Assembly: GCA_944383265.1 (NCBI GenBank)
Contig: CALWOX010000008.1
Location: 1 to 64,000, forward strand
DNA from: an uncultured Lachnospiraceae bacterium
GTDB taxonomy: Bacteria > Bacillota > Clostridia > Lachnospirales > Lachnospiraceae
Length of the DNA: 64,000 nucleotides
Direction: 5' to 3'
How positions within the stretch are numbered: the first letter of the stretch is position 1; the number at the start of each line of letters is the position of its first letter. A program made the position numbers and the translations under genes. The notes under the pieces were generated by a model. That model worked only from the letters and a program-made list of their open reading frames with translations. It had not been told where the DNA came from and searched no databases. This document shows positions 47,777 to 55,973 of the stretch, piece after piece.

Positions 47777-48274
47777 TTGAATAACATAAATTCCGGTATG
47801 CCAAAGGCATTCAATGATTCACTGAATAAGCTCAATGAACTTTCAGACGACCTATATAAATTTGTCATGCTTTACCGAGACTATATGAATGATACCCATG
47901 ATTACGGCTCGGGAGATATGCTCAGCATGGTAGAAATACATACGCTTACAGCCATTGATGATAATCCCGGAATAACGATAAATCAGCTTGCAAAAATGTG
48001 GCACCGCACTAATGGAGCCATATCTCAGACTGCTACTAAGCTTGAGGCAAAGGATTATATTACAAGAAAAAAGATGGATGGAAACGCAAAAAATATCCAT
48101 CTTTTTACTACCCCTAAGGGTAAGGCCTTAAGCGATAAGCATAAAATGTATGACTCAGCAGAGGTAGCTGAAACTGTCAAGGAACTCATGTATAAGCATT
48201 CGTGCAGCGCTGATGAGGTAGATGCTTTCTTTAAAGTCATAAAAGTTTACATTGATCTTCTTGAGGAGGAATAA
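47777..48274 (+). CDS. MarR-family transcriptional regulator
   Basis: A 165-residue winged-helix regulator. The DNA-binding part is near 65-110 (TINQLAKMWHRTNGAISQTA, then a wing KMDGNAKNIHLFTTPKG). It starts with TTG at 47777; AAGGAG is eight bases upstream. It is followed by an M20 amidohydrolase gene with its own strong promoter. The palindrome TTTAGTAGCTAAA lies in that promoter region and again before the facing C-S lyase operon at 53.2 kb, so this protein probably controls both. No copy is seen before its own gene. Confidence 0.9.
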   Translation: MNNINSGMPKAFNDSLNKLNELSDDLYKFVMLYRDYMNDTHDYGSGDMLSMVEIHTLTAIDDNPGITINQLAKMWHRTNGAISQTATKLEAKDYITRKKMDGNAKNIHLFTTPKGKALSDKHKMYDSAEVAETVKELMYKHSCSADEVDAFFKVIKVYIDLLEEE

Positions 48275-48285
48275 AGCTCTTTCAG

Positions 48286-48314
48286 TTGACACATCATTTT
48301 TCAAATCCTATAAT
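48286..48314 (+). promoter_or_regulatory. Consensus promoter of the M20 amidohydrolase gene
   Basis: TTGACA (48286-48291) and TATAAT (48309-48314) with a 17-base spacer, a perfect sigma-A match. The first base of the mRNA should be near 48321, just before the proposed MarR operator. Confidence 0.85.
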
Positions 48315-48327
48315 ATATCTATCCCTT

Positions 48328-48346
48328 TTATTTAGTAGCTAAACTT
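48328..48346. promoter_or_regulatory. Proposed MarR operator, copy 1
   Basis: TTTAGTAGCTAAA at 48331-48343, with left extension TTA and an imperfect right side. It lies a few bases after the predicted transcription start of the amidohydrolase gene, where a bound repressor would block RNA polymerase. The same 13 bases recur at 53183-53195. Confidence 0.7.
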
Positions 48347-48366
48347 TTTTTGAAAGGGGTGAATAT

Positions 48367-49764
48367 ATGGATATCAAAGCTGTTATCCAAGACAAAGAAA
48401 AAGAATTCATCAATGTCGCCATGGACATATGGAACTATGCCGAGACAGGTTATAAAGAATTTAAGTCTGCAAAGAGATTGTGCGACTGCCTTAGGGAGGA
48501 AGGCTTTAATATAAATGACAGTATCCCGGAACTCCCCACCGCTTTTATTGCTGAATACGGAAGCGGAAAGCCTGTTGTGGCCTTTTGGGCGGAGTACGAC
48601 GCTCTCCCCGGACTTTCACAAAAGGTGCTTCCTTTTAAGGAGCCTGTGGCCGAAGGAGCTCCCGGACACGGTTGTGGTCATAACCTTTTAGGCACAGCCT
48701 CCCTTGCAGCTGCTGTAGCTGTAAAAGAACTCATTAAAAAAGGAAAAATCAAGGGAACTGTGCGTCTGTATGGAACTCCCGCTGAGGAGCTTCTGACGGG
48801 AAAGGTAGTCATGGTAAAGCTTGGTCTTTTTGATGATGTGGACGCTGTAATAGGCTGGCATCCTGAACGCATTAACATGGTAATGGAAACACCTACGTCT
48901 GCTGTCTGTCAAGTAAAATTCCACTACAAGGGAAAAACCGCCCATGCTGCTGTAGATCCATGGAATGGGAGAAGTGCTCTTGATGCCGTTGAGCTTTTAA
49001 ATATTTCCGCAAACTACTTGAGGGAGCATGTTCCCCCGGGAACCACGCTCCATTATTCTACCTTGACAGAGCCCTTGGCTCCAAACATAGTTCCCGAAAA
49101 AGCTTCAGCATGGTATTTTGTAAGAGCTCGAAAAAGAGAGACTGCGCAATCAGTCTATGGCAGACTTGTAAGGTGTGCAAAGGCGGCGGCAGAAATGACT
49201 GACACAAAAGTGGAGGTTGAATTCTGCGGTGGTTGTTCAGACTACCTTCCAAACAGAACTATAGAAAAATGTCTTTATGAGGCTATGGTCAGCTGCGAAC
49301 CCATCAGTTACACTGAAGAGGAAATGGATTTCATAAGAGATATCTCAAAGACTCTCCCCGGCTCCCTTGAGGCCTCTCAGGCTCAGGTAAGGACAGATTA
49401 CGGAATTAACGTCAGCGACAAGCTGATATGCGACTTTTTTGCGCCTCTATCGGAGACTAAGAGAAAGACCTGCATCACAGGCTCTATGGACATTGGAGAT
49501 GTAAGCTACATTGTTCCAACTGCACAAATAAATATAGCCTGCTACGGATACGCTATAGCAGGACATAGTTGGCAGGTTGCCGCATATGCTGGACACAGTG
49601 TAGGCATGAAGGGTATGTTAAAGGCAGGCGAGGTAATGGCCAAGGGAGCAAAGCTTCTGTTTGAGGATACCTCTATAATAGACAGGGCAAAGGAAGAGCA
49701 TAAGGAAAGCCTCGGAGGAAAGCCCTATGAGTCTCCCCTTCCGGATGGGTATAAGCCTTTTTAA
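48367..49764 (+). CDS. M20-family amidohydrolase (AbgB-like)
   Basis: A 465-residue metal-dependent hydrolase of the M20D type that removes acyl groups from amino acids or cleaves amide-linked conjugates such as p-aminobenzoyl-glutamate. Metal-site motifs: FWAEYDALPGLS near 73, GAPGHGCGHNLLGTASLAAA near 97-116 and GTPAEELLTGK near 139, with GKTAHAAVDPWNGRSALDAV near 193 and a His-containing C-terminal part IAGHSWQVAAYAGHSVGMKG near 400. It resembles the AbgB subunit more than simple aminoacylases, but no AbgA partner is adjacent. GAAAGGGG precedes the ATG. It is probably co-regulated with the C-S lyase operon opposite. Confidence 0.9.
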   Translation: MDIKAVIQDKEKEFINVAMDIWNYAETGYKEFKSAKRLCDCLREEGFNINDSIPELPTAFIAEYGSGKPVVAFWAEYDALPGLSQKVLPFKEPVAEGAPGHGCGHNLLGTASLAAAVAVKELIKKGKIKGTVRLYGTPAEELLTGKVVMVKLGLFDDVDAVIGWHPERINMVMETPTSAVCQVKFHYKGKTAHAAVDPWNGRSALDAVELLNISANYLREHVPPGTTLHYSTLTEPLAPNIVPEKASAWYFVRARKRETAQSVYGRLVRCAKAAAEMTDTKVEVEFCGGCSDYLPNRTIEKCLYEAMVSCEPISYTEEEMDFIRDISKTLPGSLEASQAQVRTDYGINVSDKLICDFFAPLSETKRKTCITGSMDIGDVSYIVPTAQINIACYGYAIAGHSWQVAAYAGHSVGMKGMLKAGEVMAKGAKLLFEDTSIIDRAKEEHKESLGGKPYESPLPDGYKPF

Positions 49765-49823
49765 GGCTCTTCAAGAAAGAGAAAAAATGGGAACTCTCCC
49801 ATAAAAAATGATATTACAACGAC

Positions 49824-49882
49824 AAAAAACTCTCTCACCCGAAGCATCCAAACAGATGTCTTTCGGAAACGAGAGAGTTTTT
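49824..49882. terminator. Bidirectional terminator between two converging genes
   Basis: AAAAACTCTCTC (49825-49836) and GAGAGAGTTTTT (49871-49882) pair perfectly, with a second inner CCGAA/TTCGG stem. A and T runs at the two ends allow use by both the amidohydrolase gene (plus) and the DUF819 gene (minus). Confidence 0.85.
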
Positions 49883-49930
49883 ATATTTCTGTTTTTGTAT
49901 GAAGTTTTACGGAAATGATCCCTCTTTATA

Positions 49931-51121
49931 TTATTTCACCATCATGTCTATAACATTTCCTACAAAGAGTCCTGTAAAGGTTCCTATAACCGGTCCTATA
50001 GCCGCCATAACGGTTGCTATGGTAATATAAGCCTTATTTCCGTATGCCGTAGCCACAACAGGCGCTGATGAGTTTCCTCCTATGGTCGCTATAGAAGCAC
50101 AGCCCAGTGTCTGAAGATCTACATGCATCAGCTTTGCGGCAATTATCATGAAGACCGCGTGGATTATAAGCGCTGTGGCGCTGGTTGCAAGGAAATATCC
50201 TGCATCCTTGAATACGCCGAGGTCAATTCCGACACAACCGAGAAGAAGCATTACCATCGCCAAGGTTCCGCTTATTGCGGGAAGCGCAGGATTCTGTCCG
50301 AGCTTTGTGTAAGTCCCCACAAAAAGGCTGACAACTGTTACTATAAGATACATTGTTATGCTCTGTGAGAATGTCGGGAATATAGCCTCTACTTTCTCTC
50401 CTATTACAAGAGAAACGAGTTCAAGCATCATTGCTATTCCCAATACTATAAATATATCTCGCGCTCCTGCGTTCCTTCCCGCCTCTGCAGCGGTTTCATT
50501 TATATTTGATGCAGCATCCTCTATGGCTCTGATGTCCGCCTTTGTCCACTTGTTAAACTTGTCCGCAAGAATAGGTACAAGCACTATGAGCATAGTCATC
50601 CAAGGCGTAAATACAACGTAAATGAGAAGCAGAGCGTTAGCAAGACCACCGTCGCTTAGCTCAGCTATGTTTGCAGCTGCATAAAGATTCTCCGGTCCTC
50701 CTATGAAGGATCCTGTAACTGCCGCCATCGTTCCTCCCATCTCGGGAATGTTGAGCTTTGATGCGAAAGCGACTCCCGCTACTATCATACCGAGTATGAT
50801 ACTGATACAAGTGAGTACATATACCGCCAAAAGCTTGGGGCCGAGCTTAAGCATCTTTTTTCCGTCGGACTGTACTACAGCCGTGAAGATAAGGAGCGGA
50901 ACTCCGTAATCTGTCATAGCCTGCTTTGTAGCATTCACCTGGGAGGTCTCATCATAGGACCAAAGGCCGAAATGGCTGCAAAGAATAAATAAAACATAAA
51001 ATACGATAAGCGTAGGTACCACCTTAAACACCTTCGCATTGCCGAACTTCTCTGTAAAAACGTAATACAAAGCCAGCAAAGCGAAAACCGATGCAGCAAA
51101 ACCAAAACCGGTAGTTATCAT
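49931..51121 (-). CDS. DUF819-family membrane protein (YjcL-like), probable transporter
   Basis: A 396-residue membrane protein with about ten to eleven hydrophobic segments. Features of DUF819 (YjcL) are visible: GGTMAAVTGSFIGGPENLYA near 129-148 and the related second-half stretch ASIATIGGNSSAPVVATAYG near 337-356, an inverted-repeat layout typical of secondary transporters. A cytoplasmic loop is near 190-220. It is the last gene of the C-S lyase operon, so it may import the substrate of these enzymes. The family's substrate is not known to me. Confidence 0.85.
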   Translation of the reverse strand: MITTGFGFAASVFALLALYYVFTEKFGNAKVFKVVPTLIVFYVLFILCSHFGLWSYDETSQVNATKQAMTDYGVPLLIFTAVVQSDGKKMLKLGPKLLAVYVLTCISIILGMIVAGVAFASKLNIPEMGGTMAAVTGSFIGGPENLYAAANIAELSDGGLANALLLIYVVFTPWMTMLIVLVPILADKFNKWTKADIRAIEDAASNINETAAEAGRNAGARDIFIVLGIAMMLELVSLVIGEKVEAIFPTFSQSITMYLIVTVVSLFVGTYTKLGQNPALPAISGTLAMVMLLLGCVGIDLGVFKDAGYFLATSATALIIHAVFMIIAAKLMHVDLQTLGCASIATIGGNSSAPVVATAYGNKAYITIATVMAAIGPVIGTFTGLFVGNVIDMMVK

Positions 51122-51139
51122 AATTCCCCCTCCTTATAT

Positions 51140-51967
51140 CTATTTTTCAAAGACCATGAAAATATTCAGCTCGTCAAGCAGATTCACAACTATTGAGTCA
51201 TTTATCTCCTTGTAAGGGTAGCCCGAAGATTTTACGCACTCAAGGCACTTATCCATGTCTTCTGTCTTTAAGATAAGTCCCGCCTTGTTGAGCTTTCCTT
51301 TCACAGTATCAAGGCCGAATCTCTCATTACATTCTTCTGTGTTCATGAAGGTAAGATTCCTTATGCCCTCCTCCTTCTCATAGTCTCCAAGTCCCTCTTG
51401 GAAATCCTCCACTCCATTTTTTACTTTTTCAGAATATTCGGTGCTCTCGGAGAAGAGGATGACCTCCTCTATCCTTAAAGCTCCGTTCTCGTGGCTGTAT
51501 CTGTTGTTCTTGTAGAAAAGATCTCTGGTCTTATGCTCCACAGCGCCTATAAGTACATTTTCAATTATTTCTGTCTCCAAAAGTATGCAGTCGAACCTTG
51601 CCTCGCCTTTTTTCTCTCCATGGTCGGCGTATCTTCCCGCATGGACTATATCACTGCTCTTAAAGCCCTTTTCCAATGAATTTTTGTATGCCTCCTCAAT
51701 GTCTCTGCAGGCAAATTCAAAATATATGAGGCCACCCTCTGTTATGTCATACTCTTTGTAGCCTGAAGGCTTCTCCAGCACGCATTCCATATATCCGTTA
51801 TCCAGAACAAAGTGAGCATTTGCGGGGAGCTTTCCTCTCTCATCAGGGATGAGCCTGTCACAGCCGCCTGCAGCTCTGAATCCCAGCTTAAACAAAGCCC
51901 TGCTTGTATCGGGGTTCTTATTGCTGAAAAGGCCCAGATGATCGATCTTGGAACTGATTTTTATCAT
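51140..51967 (-). CDS. VOC/glyoxalase-like domain protein
   Basis: A 275-residue protein from ATG 51967, which has GGAGG eight bases upstream and overlaps the lyase stop codon as ATGA. It begins KIDHLGLFSNKNPDTSRALF and continues with a strand YMECVLEKPSG and EFACRDIEEAYKNSLEKGF, the order seen in the glyoxalase-like (VOC) fold; a second similar half starts near 150 (IEEVILFSES). Metal ligands cannot be assigned with confidence. Coupled translation with the lyase suggests it acts on a substrate or product of that enzyme. The family assignment is moderate. Confidence 0.6.
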   Translation of the reverse strand: MIKISSKIDHLGLFSNKNPDTSRALFKLGFRAAGGCDRLIPDERGKLPANAHFVLDNGYMECVLEKPSGYKEYDITEGGLIYFEFACRDIEEAYKNSLEKGFKSSDIVHAGRYADHGEKKGEARFDCILLETEIIENVLIGAVEHKTRDLFYKNNRYSHENGALRIEEVILFSESTEYSEKVKNGVEDFQEGLGDYEKEEGIRNLTFMNTEECNERFGLDTVKGKLNKAGLILKTEDMDKCLECVKSSGYPYKEINDSIVVNLLDELNIFMVFEK

Positions 51968-53163
51968 TTGTTTTTCCTCCATTCATCTACTGCTTTCTTT
52001 AACCTTTCAAGTGCTTCCTCAAGAACACTTACATGACAGGCAAGATTCCATCTTTCAAATCCGTCACCCTCAGGTCCGAACATATGGCCCTCGTCAAGAT
52101 ATAGAAGAGCCTTCTCCTTCATGAACTTCTCAAGCTCATCATACTTCATTCCCAAATCCCTGCAATCAAGCCACATAAGGTAGGTTCCTTCCATTGGCAT
52201 AACCTTAATCTCCGGGATATTTTTTTCCAAATAATCAGTCATGAACTTACGATTATTGTCTATTACCTCTATCAGTTCCTCAAGCCACTTCTCTCCATAT
52301 CTGTAGGCTGCCTCACAAGCTCTGTATCCCAAAGGGCTAACTGTATAATGTTCCTGTCCCAGAGCAATCTCATCATAGTAATGTCTTCTCATTTCAGGAT
52401 TCTTAATTATAGTGCTTGAATTCTGCATTCCTGCAAGGTTGAATCCTTTTGATGGAGCTGTAAAAACTATACAGTGATCTTCGATTTCCTCAGAAATCGA
52501 TGCAAGACAAGTATGCTTGTATCCTGGAAGTATCAGGTCGTGATGAGCCTCATCCTCCGCTATGAGAACGTCATTGTCAATACATATACGAGCCAATTTT
52601 ATAAGCTCCTCCTTTGTCCATACCCTTCCTACCGGATTATGGGGATTGCAAAGAAAAAGCATAGTCGTCTTCTCATTCTTTGCCTTTCTTTCTATATCAT
52701 CGTAATCCATCTGATACTTTCCGTCTTTGAAAACGAGGGAGCTTGTGACTATATTTCTGCCGTTATTTCCTACAATGCTATAAAAGGGGTCATAAACAGG
52801 TGATATTATTATCACATTATCTCCGGGCTTGGTGAATGAAGCCAAAGCTACATATAGAGCAGGTAATACCCCGTTCATGTCCACTATCCACTCAGGCTTT
52901 ATCTTCCAGCCGTGTCTCCTTTCCATCCAGTCCACCACAGCTTCGTAGTAAGCGGGATAACCTCCGTAATAAGCTAATACTCCGTTGTCACTGTCAAGGA
53001 AATCCTTTATTGCCTGAATTATTTCCGGAGCATTTTTAAACTCCATATCAGCAGCAGAAAAAGGGGTTATTTCCGGATCCAAGTTCCCATTATGTTCAGC
53101 CATGGCTGTCCACTTAAGCGACCCCGAGCCCTTTCTTGAAGCAATCCTGCCAAAATTATACAT
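51964..53163 (-). CDS. MalY/PatB-type aminotransferase, probable cysteine-S-conjugate beta-lyase
   Basis: PLP enzyme of fold type I, 399 residues. Family motifs: FSAADMEFKNAPEIIQAI near 35-52, GVLPALYVALASFTKPGDNV near 98, CNPHNPVGRVWTKEEL near 171, AEDEAHHDLILPG near 198 and the PLP Lys in FTAPSKGFNLAGMQ near 233. MalY/PatB proteins cleave C-S bonds of cystathionine or other cysteine S-conjugates to give pyruvate, ammonia and a thiol. AAGGAGGG precedes the ATG, directly after the proposed MarR operator. It is the first gene of a three-gene operon. Confidence 0.88.
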   Translation of the reverse strand: MYNFGRIASRKGSGSLKWTAMAEHNGNLDPEITPFSAADMEFKNAPEIIQAIKDFLDSDNGVLAYYGGYPAYYEAVVDWMERRHGWKIKPEWIVDMNGVLPALYVALASFTKPGDNVIIISPVYDPFYSIVGNNGRNIVTSSLVFKDGKYQMDYDDIERKAKNEKTTMLFLCNPHNPVGRVWTKEELIKLARICIDNDVLIAEDEAHHDLILPGYKHTCLASISEEIEDHCIVFTAPSKGFNLAGMQNSSTIIKNPEMRRHYYDEIALGQEHYTVSPLGYRACEAAYRYGEKWLEELIEVIDNNRKFMTDYLEKNIPEIKVMPMEGTYLMWLDCRDLGMKYDELEKFMKEKALLYLDEGHMFGPEGDGFERWNLACHVSVLEEALERLKKAVDEWRKNK

Positions 53164-53179
53164 TTGATTTCCCTCCTTT

Positions 53180-53198
53180 TTATTTAGTAGCTAAATAA
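53180..53198. promoter_or_regulatory. Proposed MarR operator, copy 2
   Basis: TTATTTAG (53180-53187), TAG, CTAAATAA (53191-53198): perfect 8-bp arms. It lies between the -10 box and the ribosome site of the C-S lyase operon. The 13-base core is identical to that before the amidohydrolase gene. Confidence 0.75.
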
Positions 53199-53227
53199 AA
53201 AGTAACATTGTTTTAAAGTTAAGTCAA
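53199..53227 (-). promoter_or_regulatory. Promoter of the C-S lyase operon
   Basis: On the minus strand TTGACT (53222-53227) and TACTTT (53199-53204) are 17 bases apart. The -10 box touches the MarR-type palindrome. From here to 53430 the sequence is AT-rich with no gene. Confidence 0.65.
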
Positions 53228-53433: not shown

Positions 53434-53462
53434 TTGACACAGTGTCAGAACAGTGATATATT
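53434..53462 (+). promoter_or_regulatory. Promoter of the alcohol dehydrogenase operon
   Basis: TTGACA (53434-53439) and TATATT (53457-53462) with a 17-base spacer. The first TetR-type palindrome covers the -35 box and a second lies just after the expected start point. Confidence 0.85.
53435..53447. promoter_or_regulatory. Proposed TetR operator O1
   Basis: TGACACAGTGTCA, a perfect 6-bp-arm palindrome, overlapping the -35 box of the alcohol dehydrogenase promoter. Confidence 0.8.
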
Positions 53463-53470
53463 CCAATTAC

Positions 53471-53483
53471 TGACACTATGTCA
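53471..53483. promoter_or_regulatory. Proposed TetR operator O2
   Basis: TGACACTATGTCA, a near-perfect palindrome of the same type, 36 bases after O1 and downstream of the -10 box. Two sites could hold two repressor dimers. Confidence 0.8.
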
Positions 53484-53504
53484 GAATAGAAGGAGGTATC
53501 AATT

Positions 53505-54680
53505 ATGCTCGGAAACTTTTCTTACTGCAACCCTACAAAACTTTACTTTGGGAATGATTCATTAAATTATCTCGGTACAGAGCTTCAGAAATACGGAAAG
53601 AACGTAGTCCTTATATACGGAGGCGGGTCCATAAAAAAGAACGGTATCTATGACGAGGTCGTAAGTATACTCAAGGACAATGATAAAAATATAGCTGAAA
53701 TATCAGGGGTTATGCCCAATCCGACTACAAATAAGCTCTATGAAGGCATCGACATAGCCCGCAGACATAATGCCGATCTCCTGCTTGCCGTAGGTGGCGG
53801 TTCGGTCTGCGATTATGCAAAGGCGGTTTCTGTATCTGTAAACTGCAGTGATGATCCTTGGGAGAAATATTATATCCGCTTTGAGGAGCCCGACTGCACG
53901 ATCGTTCCTGTGGGATGTGTCCTTACCATGGTAGGAACAGGCTCTGAGATGAATGCGGGTTCTGTCATCACAAATCCCCTGACAAAGCAGAAAATAGGAC
54001 ATGTATTTGCTGATAAGAGCATTATGCCACGTTTTTCCATACTTAACCCGAATTATACGCTTTCGCTTCCTCATTATCAGATGGTTGCAGGAATTTACGA
54101 CATCTTCAATCACATTTGCGAGCAGTATTTCTCAGGCGAAGATGACTGCACAAGCGACTACATAAGCGAGGGACTTATGCGTTCTGTAATTCATTCATCA
54201 AGGATAGCCAATAAGGATCCTCAGAACTACGAGGCAAGAAGCAATCTCATGTGGGCGGCCACATGGGCCTTAAACACCCTTGTATCCCGTGGGAAGTCTA
54301 CCGATTGGATGATTCACATGATAGGTCAGTCTGTAGGAGCTTACACAAATGCAACCCACGGAATGACTCTTGCGGCCGTATCACTGCCCTACTACCGCCA
54401 TATCCTTCCCTATGGACTTGCCAAATTCAAGAGGTTTGCCGTAAATGTATGGAATATTGATCCCGAGGGAAAAAGTGATAAGGAAACAGCCGAGGCAGGC
54501 CTTGAGGCCATGGCTTCTTGGATGCGTGAGCTTGGCCTTGTCATGAATACCTCAGAGCTCGGAGTCACTGATGACATGATAGAAGGTATTGCAGACGGAA
54601 GTATAATACTTCCCGGTGGCTACAAGGTTTTGGAGCATGATGAAATAGTTAAAATATTAAAGGAGAGCATGTATGAATAA
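53505..54680 (+). CDS. Iron-containing alcohol dehydrogenase
   Basis: Group III alcohol dehydrogenase, 391 residues, similar to butanol dehydrogenases (YqhD/BdhA type). Cofactor motif GGGSVCDYAKAVSVS near 95-109; the metal-binding region includes DIFNHICEQYFSGEDD near 205 and the His-rich stretch NATHGMTLAAVSLPYYRHI near 283-302. It would reduce aldehydes to alcohols with NAD(P)H in the cytoplasm. AGAAGGAGG precedes the ATG. It overlaps the flavodoxin gene by eight bases and is controlled, by inference, by the TetR protein encoded two genes on. Confidence 0.93.
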   Translation: MLGNFSYCNPTKLYFGNDSLNYLGTELQKYGKNVVLIYGGGSIKKNGIYDEVVSILKDNDKNIAEISGVMPNPTTNKLYEGIDIARRHNADLLLAVGGGSVCDYAKAVSVSVNCSDDPWEKYYIRFEEPDCTIVPVGCVLTMVGTGSEMNAGSVITNPLTKQKIGHVFADKSIMPRFSILNPNYTLSLPHYQMVAGIYDIFNHICEQYFSGEDDCTSDYISEGLMRSVIHSSRIANKDPQNYEARSNLMWAATWALNTLVSRGKSTDWMIHMIGQSVGAYTNATHGMTLAAVSLPYYRHILPYGLAKFKRFAVNVWNIDPEGKSDKETAEAGLEAMASWMRELGLVMNTSELGVTDDMIEGIADGSIILPGGYKVLEHDEIVKILKESMYE

Positions 54681-55143
54681 GAAGATTTTGGTAGCATATT
54701 TTTCGGCGAGCGGAGTTACAGCCCGCGTCGCAAAGGAAATAGCCAAGGACTCAGGTGCGGATATATATGAGATCGCTCCTTTAGAGCCCTATACCGCCGC
54801 CGACCTTAATTGGATGGACAAAAAGAGCCGCAGCACTCTCGAAATGAATGACCCTGCCTGTCGACCTGCCATTAAAGACTCTATCGATGTGACGGACTAT
54901 GATGTGATTTTTGTAGGCTTTCCTGTATGGTGGTATGTGGAGCCTCGCATCGTTGACACCTTTCTTGAAGCCCATGATTTTTCAGGTAAGGTCATGATAC
55001 CCTTTGCCACTTCAGGCGGAAGCGGAATAGAAAACTCTGAAAAAAGCCTTAAAGAACATTGCCCTAAAGCAGATTGGAAAAAGGGAAAGCTTTTAAACAA
55101 CGGCAATGTGTCAGCTTGGGTAAAAGCTGTACTGAACGACTGA
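54673..55143 (+). CDS. Flavodoxin
   Basis: A 156-residue FMN-binding electron carrier. The phosphate-binding loop AYFSASGVTARVAKEIA is at 8-24, the aromatic region VGFPVWWYVEPRI near 80-92, and FATSGGSGIENSEKSL near 116. It is of the longer, YwqN/flavodoxin_4-like form with a conserved Trp before the flavin. It overlaps the alcohol dehydrogenase gene, so both are made together; electron transfer to that enzyme is not needed by its known chemistry, and a joint role in aldehyde or redox stress is a guess. Confidence 0.9.
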   Translation: MNKKILVAYFSASGVTARVAKEIAKDSGADIYEIAPLEPYTAADLNWMDKKSRSTLEMNDPACRPAIKDSIDVTDYDVIFVGFPVWWYVEPRIVDTFLEAHDFSGKVMIPFATSGGSGIENSEKSLKEHCPKADWKKGKLLNNGNVSAWVKAVLND

Positions 55144-55234
55144 TTAATATTTACCGTCAGAAAAGGATCAATAACATTACAAAAAAGAATGAATCTCTTC
55201 CCTTTGGGTTCTTATACATACCTAAAGGCAAAAT

Positions 55235-55263
55235 TTGACGCAATGTCAGAAATTGCCTATAAT
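55235..55263 (+). promoter_or_regulatory. Promoter of the TetR gene, with operator O3
   Basis: TTGACG (55235-55240) and TATAAT (55258-55263) with a 17-base spacer. TGACGCAATGTCA at 55236-55248 differs from O1/O2 in the inner bases only and covers the -35 box exactly as O1 does, which points to autoregulation. Confidence 0.8.
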
Positions 55264-55340: not shown

Positions 55341-55973
55341 ATGCCTAAGGGATCAGAAGAACTCACAAATTCACGAAAAGAAGAAATTATAAATGCCTGC
55401 GCTTTACTATATGAAGACCATGGTTTTAAGGATATTTCAATAAGGGACATAGGTGCAAAGACCTCATTTACAAGAACCTCTATATATAATTATTTTCAGA
55501 CAAAGGAGGAGATATTTCTCGCCCTTCTTCAAAGAGAATACGAGGCGTGGATATCTGACCTTAAAAATATAATGTCAGAAAATGACTCTCTCTCTGCAGA
55601 AGGCTTTGCGGACAAGCTTTCAAAAAGCCTTGAAAGACGCGGCTGCATGCTTAAGCTCATGTCAATGAATCTCTATGACATGGAGGGAAACAGCCGCATA
55701 GAGAATCTGGTGGCCTTCAAGCTTGTGTATGCAGACGCTATGAGGATACTCTCCTGTTGTCTGGAAAAGTTTTTTTCGAAAATGAGTGCAAATGATATAC
55801 AGGAATTTATATACGCCCTTTTTCCCTTTATGTTCGGAGTGTACCCCTATACCAACGCCACGCCGAAGCAAAAGGAGGCAATGGAGCTCGCTCATGTAAA
55901 TTATGCAAGGTATTCTGTATATGAGATAACGAATTCCTTCATAAAAAGAATGCTTGCTCCATTTGGCAGGTAG
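55341..55973 (+). CDS. TetR-family repressor
   Basis: A 210-residue regulator. The N-terminal helix-turn-helix is at about 10-60 (EEIINACALLYEDHGFKDIS, then RDIGAKTSFTRTSIYNYFQT), and the rest is a helical ligand-binding domain. GAGAGG precedes the ATG. Three palindromes of the TGACAC-N-GTGTCA type lie at the promoters of this gene and of the alcohol dehydrogenase-flavodoxin operon, placed to block RNA polymerase. The inducer is not known; a product or substrate of the dehydrogenase is plausible. Confidence 0.93.
   Translation: MPKGSEELTNSRKEEIINACALLYEDHGFKDISIRDIGAKTSFTRTSIYNYFQTKEEIFLALLQREYEAWISDLKNIMSENDSLSAEGFADKLSKSLERRGCMLKLMSMNLYDMEGNSRIENLVAFKLVYADAMRILSCCLEKFFSKMSANDIQEFIYALFPFMFGVYPYTNATPKQKEAMELAHVNYARYSVYEITNSFIKRMLAPFGR

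Follow-up and report, generated by a model that had tools for sequence, protein, structure and literature searches.

A MarR-linked palindrome marks a predicted two-operon regulon joining a PatB-family C-S lyase to an M20 amidohydrolase, a VOC protein and a DUF819 carrier in Lachnospiraceae

A five-gene cassette was analysed in the 2.30 Mb genome of an uncultured Lachnospiraceae bacterium (GenBank assembly GCA_944383265.1), within the first 64,000 nucleotides of contig CALWOX010000008.1 (the window, whose coordinates are used throughout). Genes for a MarR-family regulator and an M20 amidohydrolase lie on the forward strand and converge with a reverse-strand PatB–VOC–DUF819 operon. The features of the cassette are the following:

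47777–48274, forward strand: MarR-family regulator of 165 amino acids, TTG start after AAGGAG (PF01047, 40.6 bits, cut-off 24.6)
48286–48314, forward strand: M20 promoter, TTGACA-17-TATAAT (12/12 in a consensus scan; also 12/12 in loci L004 and L078)
48331–48343, forward strand: predicted operator 1, TTTAGTAGCTAAA, beginning 16 bp past the −10 box
48367–49764, forward strand: M20 amidohydrolase of 465 amino acids (TIGR01891, 238.4 bits, cut-off 153.75)
49828–49890, no strand assigned: probable terminator, AACTCTCTC...GAGAGAGTT flanked by A and T runs (read by eye)
49931–51121, reverse strand: DUF819 carrier of 396 amino acids (PF05684, 186.2 bits, cut-off 27)
51140–51967, reverse strand: VOC/Glyoxalase_3-like protein (PF13468, 33 bits, cut-off 25.1)
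51964–53163, reverse strand: PatB-family C-S lyase of 399 amino acids (TIGR04350, 397.9 bits, cut-off 340)
53176–53202, reverse strand: predicted operator 2, an inverted repeat with 12-bp arms, CTTTTTATTTAG-nnn-CTAAATAAAAAG, with the core TTTAGCTACTAAA (53183–53195)
53199–53227, reverse strand: PatB promoter, TTGACT-17-TACTTT, with TGT before the −10 box (extended −10); TTGACA-17-TATTTT in the sister species

A scan gave a forward-strand match at 49859–49876, inside the hairpin region where the two operons converge. The VOC start codon at 51967 overlaps the PatB stop codon (ATGA), and a longer alternative frame runs from 51982; the overlapping ATG is most likely the true start, because the frame of the sister species has the same one.

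A preliminary description of this stretch had placed one copy of a 13-base palindrome just after a perfect M20 promoter, with a MarR gene immediately before it, and a second copy after the −10 box of the lyase operon. All of these placements proved accurate, the core of operator 2 beginning about 3 bp past a weak TACTTT box. In the whole genome TTTAGTAGCTAAA occurs exactly twice, each time at a cassette promoter (48331–48343 and 53183–53195), with about 0.14 copies per genome expected from an estimate based on base composition, and allowing one mismatch added a single copy, located inside a 472-residue open frame on another contig. The relaxed form TTTAGNNNCTAAA matched four sites in the 2.30 Mb, two of them in the cassette, and a reversed control pattern matched nine. 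Neither of the two remaining TTTAGNNNCTAAA sites resembles an operator of a further regulon member: C3:275448 is inside a 238-residue frame, and C4:40655 is about 270 bp past ftsZ and about 790 bp before the next long forward frame. With up to two mismatches no excess of TTTAGTAGCTAAA was found in the window (3 copies, 2.77 expected from shuffles), and the evidence therefore lies in the exactness, position and conservation of the two copies. Around the 53183 copy, as its core, extends a perfect inverted repeat of 27 bp with 12-bp arms; among repeats with a spacer of at most 6, none in the 64 kb is longer.

Conservation was examined in 25 genomes of the genus (this one included), among which a MarR protein at least 85% identical was present in three and the VOC protein in two. 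The sister species (G317, loci L004 and L059) carries the whole cassette with 85–94% identity and both palindromes unchanged, and a third genome (G318, locus L078) carries MarR, M20, operator 1 and, up to the point where its contig ends, the C-terminal 42 residues of the DUF819 protein. The three operators visible in these two genomes are identical to those of the window: at operator 1 of G317, identity is uninterrupted from the palindrome up to and including the start codon of M20, and at operator 2 of G317 the 25-bp core is the same. By contrast, 42–74% of the fourfold sites in the five genes differ between the window and G317, and silent positions are thus by no means conserved. The genes flanking the cassette also differ between the window and G317. 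A single fixed genomic site for the cassette was rejected, as the upstream flank, with a LytTR-like gene and a citrate synthase-like gene (the latter named by eye), is common to G317 and G318 and not to the window. MarR identity to G318 is 94% versus 74% for threonine synthase, and to G317 about 86% versus 83%, figures that are no more than suggestive of lateral transfer.

The palindrome belongs to a wider class of predicted operators, TTTA(G/A)NNN(Y)TAAA, also written TTTARNNNYTAAA. For this, the MarR protein was searched in 299 genomes of the family and in the 25 of the genus. Surroundings were inspected for all 17 family matches (E up to 1.6e-10, the cassette's own left out), and PatB lay within about 5 kb of the MarR homolog in 11; among the six genus matches outside the three cassettes (down to E 4e-12), PatB was linked in four, and one of the exceptions, G300:C103, ends a 6.6 kb contig. 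Perfect TTTAG...CTAAA or TTTAA...TTAAA palindromes were then counted in the 200 bp upstream of full-length PatB genes, leaving out duplicates, loci with less than 150 bp of upstream sequence, and PatB matches that were weaker than 1e-60, spanned no more than about 300 residues or began after residue 6. The palindrome preceded PatB in 10 of the 15 MarR-linked loci (a count that includes both the window and L059, which are close kin) and in none of the 40 for which no link was detected; after Markov shuffling, the 15 linked regions gave a mean of 0.27 and a maximum of 3 in 500. One locus of the unlinked group (L017) is the same place as L048, where a MarR gene lies 3 kb away, making 10 of 16 versus 0 of 39 the fairer count, with only about 1.5 kb of flank at 14 of the 39, where MarR links may be missed. 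Twelve sites, to which the window, L122 and L132 contributed two each and L004 and L078 none, gave the consensus TTTA-(G/A)-NNN-(C/T)-TAAA, with a C as the next base in 8 of them; its core is the search pattern, and the fixed letters are not independent evidence. With a perfect palindrome in its PatB promoter and a homologous MarR gene nearby, the window falls within this class. The best NCBIfam match of the regulator is FabT and its nearest solved structure is 6jbx, a fatty-acid biosynthesis regulator, while its score against the FabT equivalog model (NF050133) was 45.3 bits, below the cut-off of 200. It shares a family with FabT and other MarR repressors and differs from FabT in its linkage to PatB and its own operator class. 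A MarR paralog with 33% identity in the same genome (L140, C5:97671) lies about 3 kb from another M20 gene, with no PatB in the 13 kb around it.

Promoter geometry was assessed in 14 motif-bearing promoters, five of them from the three cassettes, a sigma-70-like promoter being defined by at least 9 of 12 matches. In 12 promoters the −10 box ends 3–19 bp ahead of the palindrome, 16 being the commonest distance; under random placement the average was 2.9 of 14, and 12 was never attained in 2000 trials. The exceptions are the PatB promoter of L122 and that of the window, which is weak (its counterpart in the sister species matches at 10/12). A protein bound at these positions would block initiation or early elongation, and the location just past the −10 box therefore points to a repressor. 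In L122 a second motif precedes the locus's own amino-acid permease gene, which would make it a two-operator regulon like that of the window. Across 19 scanned loci, 13 of the 14 motif copies precede PatB, M20 or a carrier gene, and eight of these loci have no motif.

The lyase had been described as MalY/PatB-type, and only the PatB half of this label survived: the protein passes the curated TIGR04350 model and is closest in the PDB to cystalysin (1c7n, 398.8 bits, E 2.2e-118), whereas MalY scored 168.6 bits. Residues K239, N176, D204, Y124 and R371 are invariant in a 10-sequence alignment; we take K239 to be the lysine that binds pyridoxal phosphate (PLP) and assign the cofactor-residue roles from cystalysin. 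Treponema denticola cystalysin, the closest solved lyase, was compared as a protein, through its aligned catalytic residues. PatB recurs with a carrier, a VOC protein, an M20 enzyme and the MarR group, the partners differing each time, and the full combination was seen in this genus only. Carriers beside PatB identified by family scan include an amino-acid permease (L122), SDF symporters (L127, L080) and an MFS protein (L138); other adjacent carriers were named by eye only. In G357, which belongs to a different family within the phylum, a 280-residue VOC protein, a DctM-type TRAP carrier and a solute-binding protein come after PatB in that order, and the PatB–VOC–TRAP carrier arrangement occurs in two of three genomes of that family (G357 and its congener G658; the last two genes were scanned in G357 only). 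In L046 (8125–9744), a RidA-like protein (named by eye) directly follows PatB and would remove aminoacrylate released by a beta-lyase.

The M20 enzyme passes the curated TIGR01891 model and contains the motifs GHGCGH, PAEE, WHPE and GHSW (C103/H105, E140-E141, H165, H400), whose residues presumably act as metal ligands. HmrA, Xaa-Arg dipeptidase and YxeP are among the solved structures nearest to it. Of the 37 non-cassette loci longer than 6 kb, five (L010, L060, L061, L062 and L080) have a distant relative of this M20 gene no more than 6 kb from PatB, and the shorter L138, outside the 37, has the order MFS–PatB–M20–MarR. By eye, the neighbours of close M20 relatives include amino-acid ABC importers and other carriers; two paralogs in the same genome, 37–41% identical to the cassette enzyme (L153, C5:143283; L154, C3:237738), sit behind genes resembling parts of amino-acid ABC importers. 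The VOC protein passes the Pfam test for PF13468 and has relatives in 1 of 299 family genomes (its own), 2 of 25 genus genomes and 3 of 398 phylum genomes (two of them weak). The VOC protein of G357 is 25% identical to it in an alignment and, used as a query, found no match in plasmids.

DUF819 membership of the carrier is clear from its PF05684 score. Its AlphaFold2 model (predicted local distance difference test, pLDDT, 81.8) had 18 PDB matches with E<0.001, all of them CitS entries (template modelling scores of 0.50–0.68 by query length), which is in line with earlier modelling of the family as given in an excerpt of PMC8396727. A CitS-like carrier would suit an amide-masked amino acid, because masking takes away the amino charge and leaves an anion; we regard this as a lead. 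DUF819 genes occur in 27 of the 299 family genomes. Among the eight best of the other family matches, five adjoin an amide-bond enzyme or a transglutaminase-like protein: a beta-Ala-His dipeptidase (L083, L088), a transglutaminase-like protein (L084, and L090 with PepV behind it), or an epimerase-like protein below its equivalog cut-off together with pyroglutamyl peptidase (L086). No such enzyme was recognised at L085, L087 and L089, where neighbours were scanned in part and L087 is cut by a contig end. These surroundings suggest that DUF819 proteins may carry small peptides.

Taken from operator class, promoter geometry, gene linkage and family membership, all of which can be read in the sequences, the cassette is very probably a two-operon regulon under one MarR repressor, as the preliminary description had held; the conserved gene set, the operators and the promoter spacing support this part well. 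For repression, ligand release, transport direction, substrate and the order of steps we infer the following scheme. The MarR repressor would bind TTTA(G/A)NNN(Y)TAAA just inside the transcribed region at both promoters and block transcription, and a ligand, probably the substrate or a product, would release it; without ligand both operons would stay off. The DUF819 protein would import an amide-masked cysteine S-conjugate (N-acyl or dipeptidyl), and the M20 enzyme would remove the mask (acetyl, as in a mercapturate, gamma-glutamyl or glycyl) to free the amino acid, which PatB would convert by beta-elimination to pyruvate, ammonia and thiol. The substrate or a product would also be acted on by the VOC protein, the translation of which overlaps that of PatB. 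We hold this complete scheme of regulated uptake, unmasking and beta-elimination to be reasonably likely, and our confidence in it is a shade lower because M20 seldom accompanies PatB in MarR-linked loci. The chemistry first proposed for N-acyl cysteine conjugates is partly supported: it agrees with the family assignments and with the recurrence of PatB beside carriers and, less often, beside M20, and a dipeptide (a gamma-glutamyl- or Cys-Gly-type conjugate) would be just as compatible as a mercapturate. More tentatively, and as one joint proposal that we put forward as possible, a new MarR group in several Lachnospiraceae genera would control PatB lyases through one operator class, and here, with captured M20, DUF819 and VOC genes, would form a dedicated route with which gut bacteria unmask and cleave mercapturate-like or dipeptidyl cysteine conjugates.

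Several observations weigh against the complete scheme. PatB was not found near 6 of the 17 family MarR matches, and the perfect motif is missing from 5 of the 15 MarR-linked PatB loci; L081, which is MarR-linked and was excluded by the E-value filter, also lacks it, and its inclusion gives 10 of 17. In L048 PatB is preceded by TetR-like AACCAATTGGTT sites and by no palindrome. Among the 12 MarR-linked non-cassette loci an M20 gene is near in L080 only, with L138 as a second case, and the hydrolase is therefore an add-on. The neighbourhoods of close M20 relatives gave no pointer to the substrate, and PatB occurred in none of the 14 surroundings (tblastn; three are paralogs from the same genome). 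Finally, the AlphaFold2 model of the VOC protein (pLDDT 47.8, from 3 sequences) was too poor for use. In L048 (10827–11050 and 7089–8182), three AACCAATTGGTT copies lie upstream of the PatB/permease operon and a TetR-like gene is placed before the MarR homolog; this PatB may be under a different repressor.

The strongest alternative, which we consider rather unlikely, is that the same regulon serves general amino-acid and dipeptide nutrition without any special S-conjugate, with M20 as a broad dipeptidase or aminoacylase and PatB mainly as a cysteine desulfhydrase or cystathionine beta-lyase. The closeness of PatB to cystalysin, which is described as making H2S from cysteine (excerpt of PMC11203769), fits this account, as do the likeness of M20 to HmrA and Xaa-Arg dipeptidase, the dipeptidases adjoining some DUF819 relatives and the presence of M20 in few PatB-linked relatives; yet a dedicated MarR-type regulator, carriers that vary between genomes and an occurrence in 3 of 25 genus genomes would speak for a special substrate and against a housekeeping role. 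It is improbable that the cassette is a detoxification module in which MarR responds to an electrophile or its thiol adduct, the adduct is processed by VOC and M20 and cleared by PatB, and DUF819 acts as an exporter. Responses to electrophiles and drugs often involve MarR and VOC proteins, and DUF819 may transport in either direction, but the CitS-like fold of the model points to a sodium-coupled importer of organic anions, and the five genes include no thiol transferase or efflux family. Least probable of all is that some regulator other than the adjacent MarR protein binds the palindrome, as the 44% identical MarR homolog of L048, with TetR-type sites and no palindrome near PatB, might imply, because the palindrome tracks linkage to the MarR group (10 of 15 versus 0 of 40) and the TetR gene at 55341 appears, by eye, to have a different repeat of its own.

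For the route of masked-conjugate uptake, unmasking and cleavage, the nearest known logic would be the Cys-Gly-3M3SH (cysteinylglycine conjugate of 3-methyl-3-sulfanylhexan-1-ol) route of Staphylococcus hominis, in which an amide-masked cysteine S-conjugate is imported by a carrier, an M20 dipeptidase removes the mask and ShPatB cleaves the product. The likeness lies in import, M20 unmasking and PatB-type C-S lysis; the cassette differs in that its M20 enzyme belongs to the TIGR01891 group, its carrier is a DUF819 protein, a shared palindrome joins the genes and a VOC protein is present. NCBIfam includes a 'Cys-Gly-3M3SH dipeptidase' model, and a ShPatB structure is listed in the excerpt of PMC11203769. 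For the deacylase, the closest analogy would be the Bacillus subtilis scm (yxe) operon for S-(2-succino)cysteine, in which, according to an excerpt of PMC9706529, the M20 enzyme YxeP deacetylates an N-acetylated sulfur amino acid and which has ABC transporter genes of its own; YxeP also figures among the solved structures closest to the cassette M20. The scm route N-acetylates its substrate, cleaves it with YxeK or 2SL, deacetylates it and keeps the cysteine, whereas the cassette route would end in a PLP lyase. The YxeL acetyltransferase, YxeK and 2SL are not among the five cassette frames, a comparison that did not extend to the remainder of the genome. Among the matches listed in open-licence PMC texts, neither a PatB-linked MarR protein with a common operator nor the five-gene set is described, in agreement with the first impression that the combination with VOC and DUF819 is not a described pathway. 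The parts are known families, and the PatB-linked MarR group with its operator and the five-gene combination appear new.

An operator that can be read in the sequence offers a handle for matching lyases to their carriers, hydrolases and inducers, and the cassette provides a testable lead for two protein groups, the DUF819 carriers and this VOC group. Gut bacterial C-S lyases are reported to turn pollutant cysteine conjugates into thiols that can be methylated and absorbed (excerpt of PMC5515271). If the more tentative joint proposal is true, DUF819 would gain its first substrate class, small amide-masked anions, and part of the thiol formation from cysteine conjugates that gut studies describe would gain a genetic basis.

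Two further arrangements were seen near PatB genes. In L133 (1970–6627) and L134 (7932–11084), PatB lies beside a large old-yellow-enzyme-like reductase and a YkvI-like membrane protein (by eye; that of L134 had no Pfam match), with a distant MarR gene nearby and no perfect TTTA palindrome. Next to the cassette itself, the repeats TGACACAGTGTCAGA, TGACACTATGTCAGA and TGACGCAATGTCAGA (window positions 53434–53490 and 55232–55255, read by eye) precede an Fe-ADH/flavodoxin operon (53505–55143) and a TetR gene (55341–55973), which perhaps form a separate TetR regulon.

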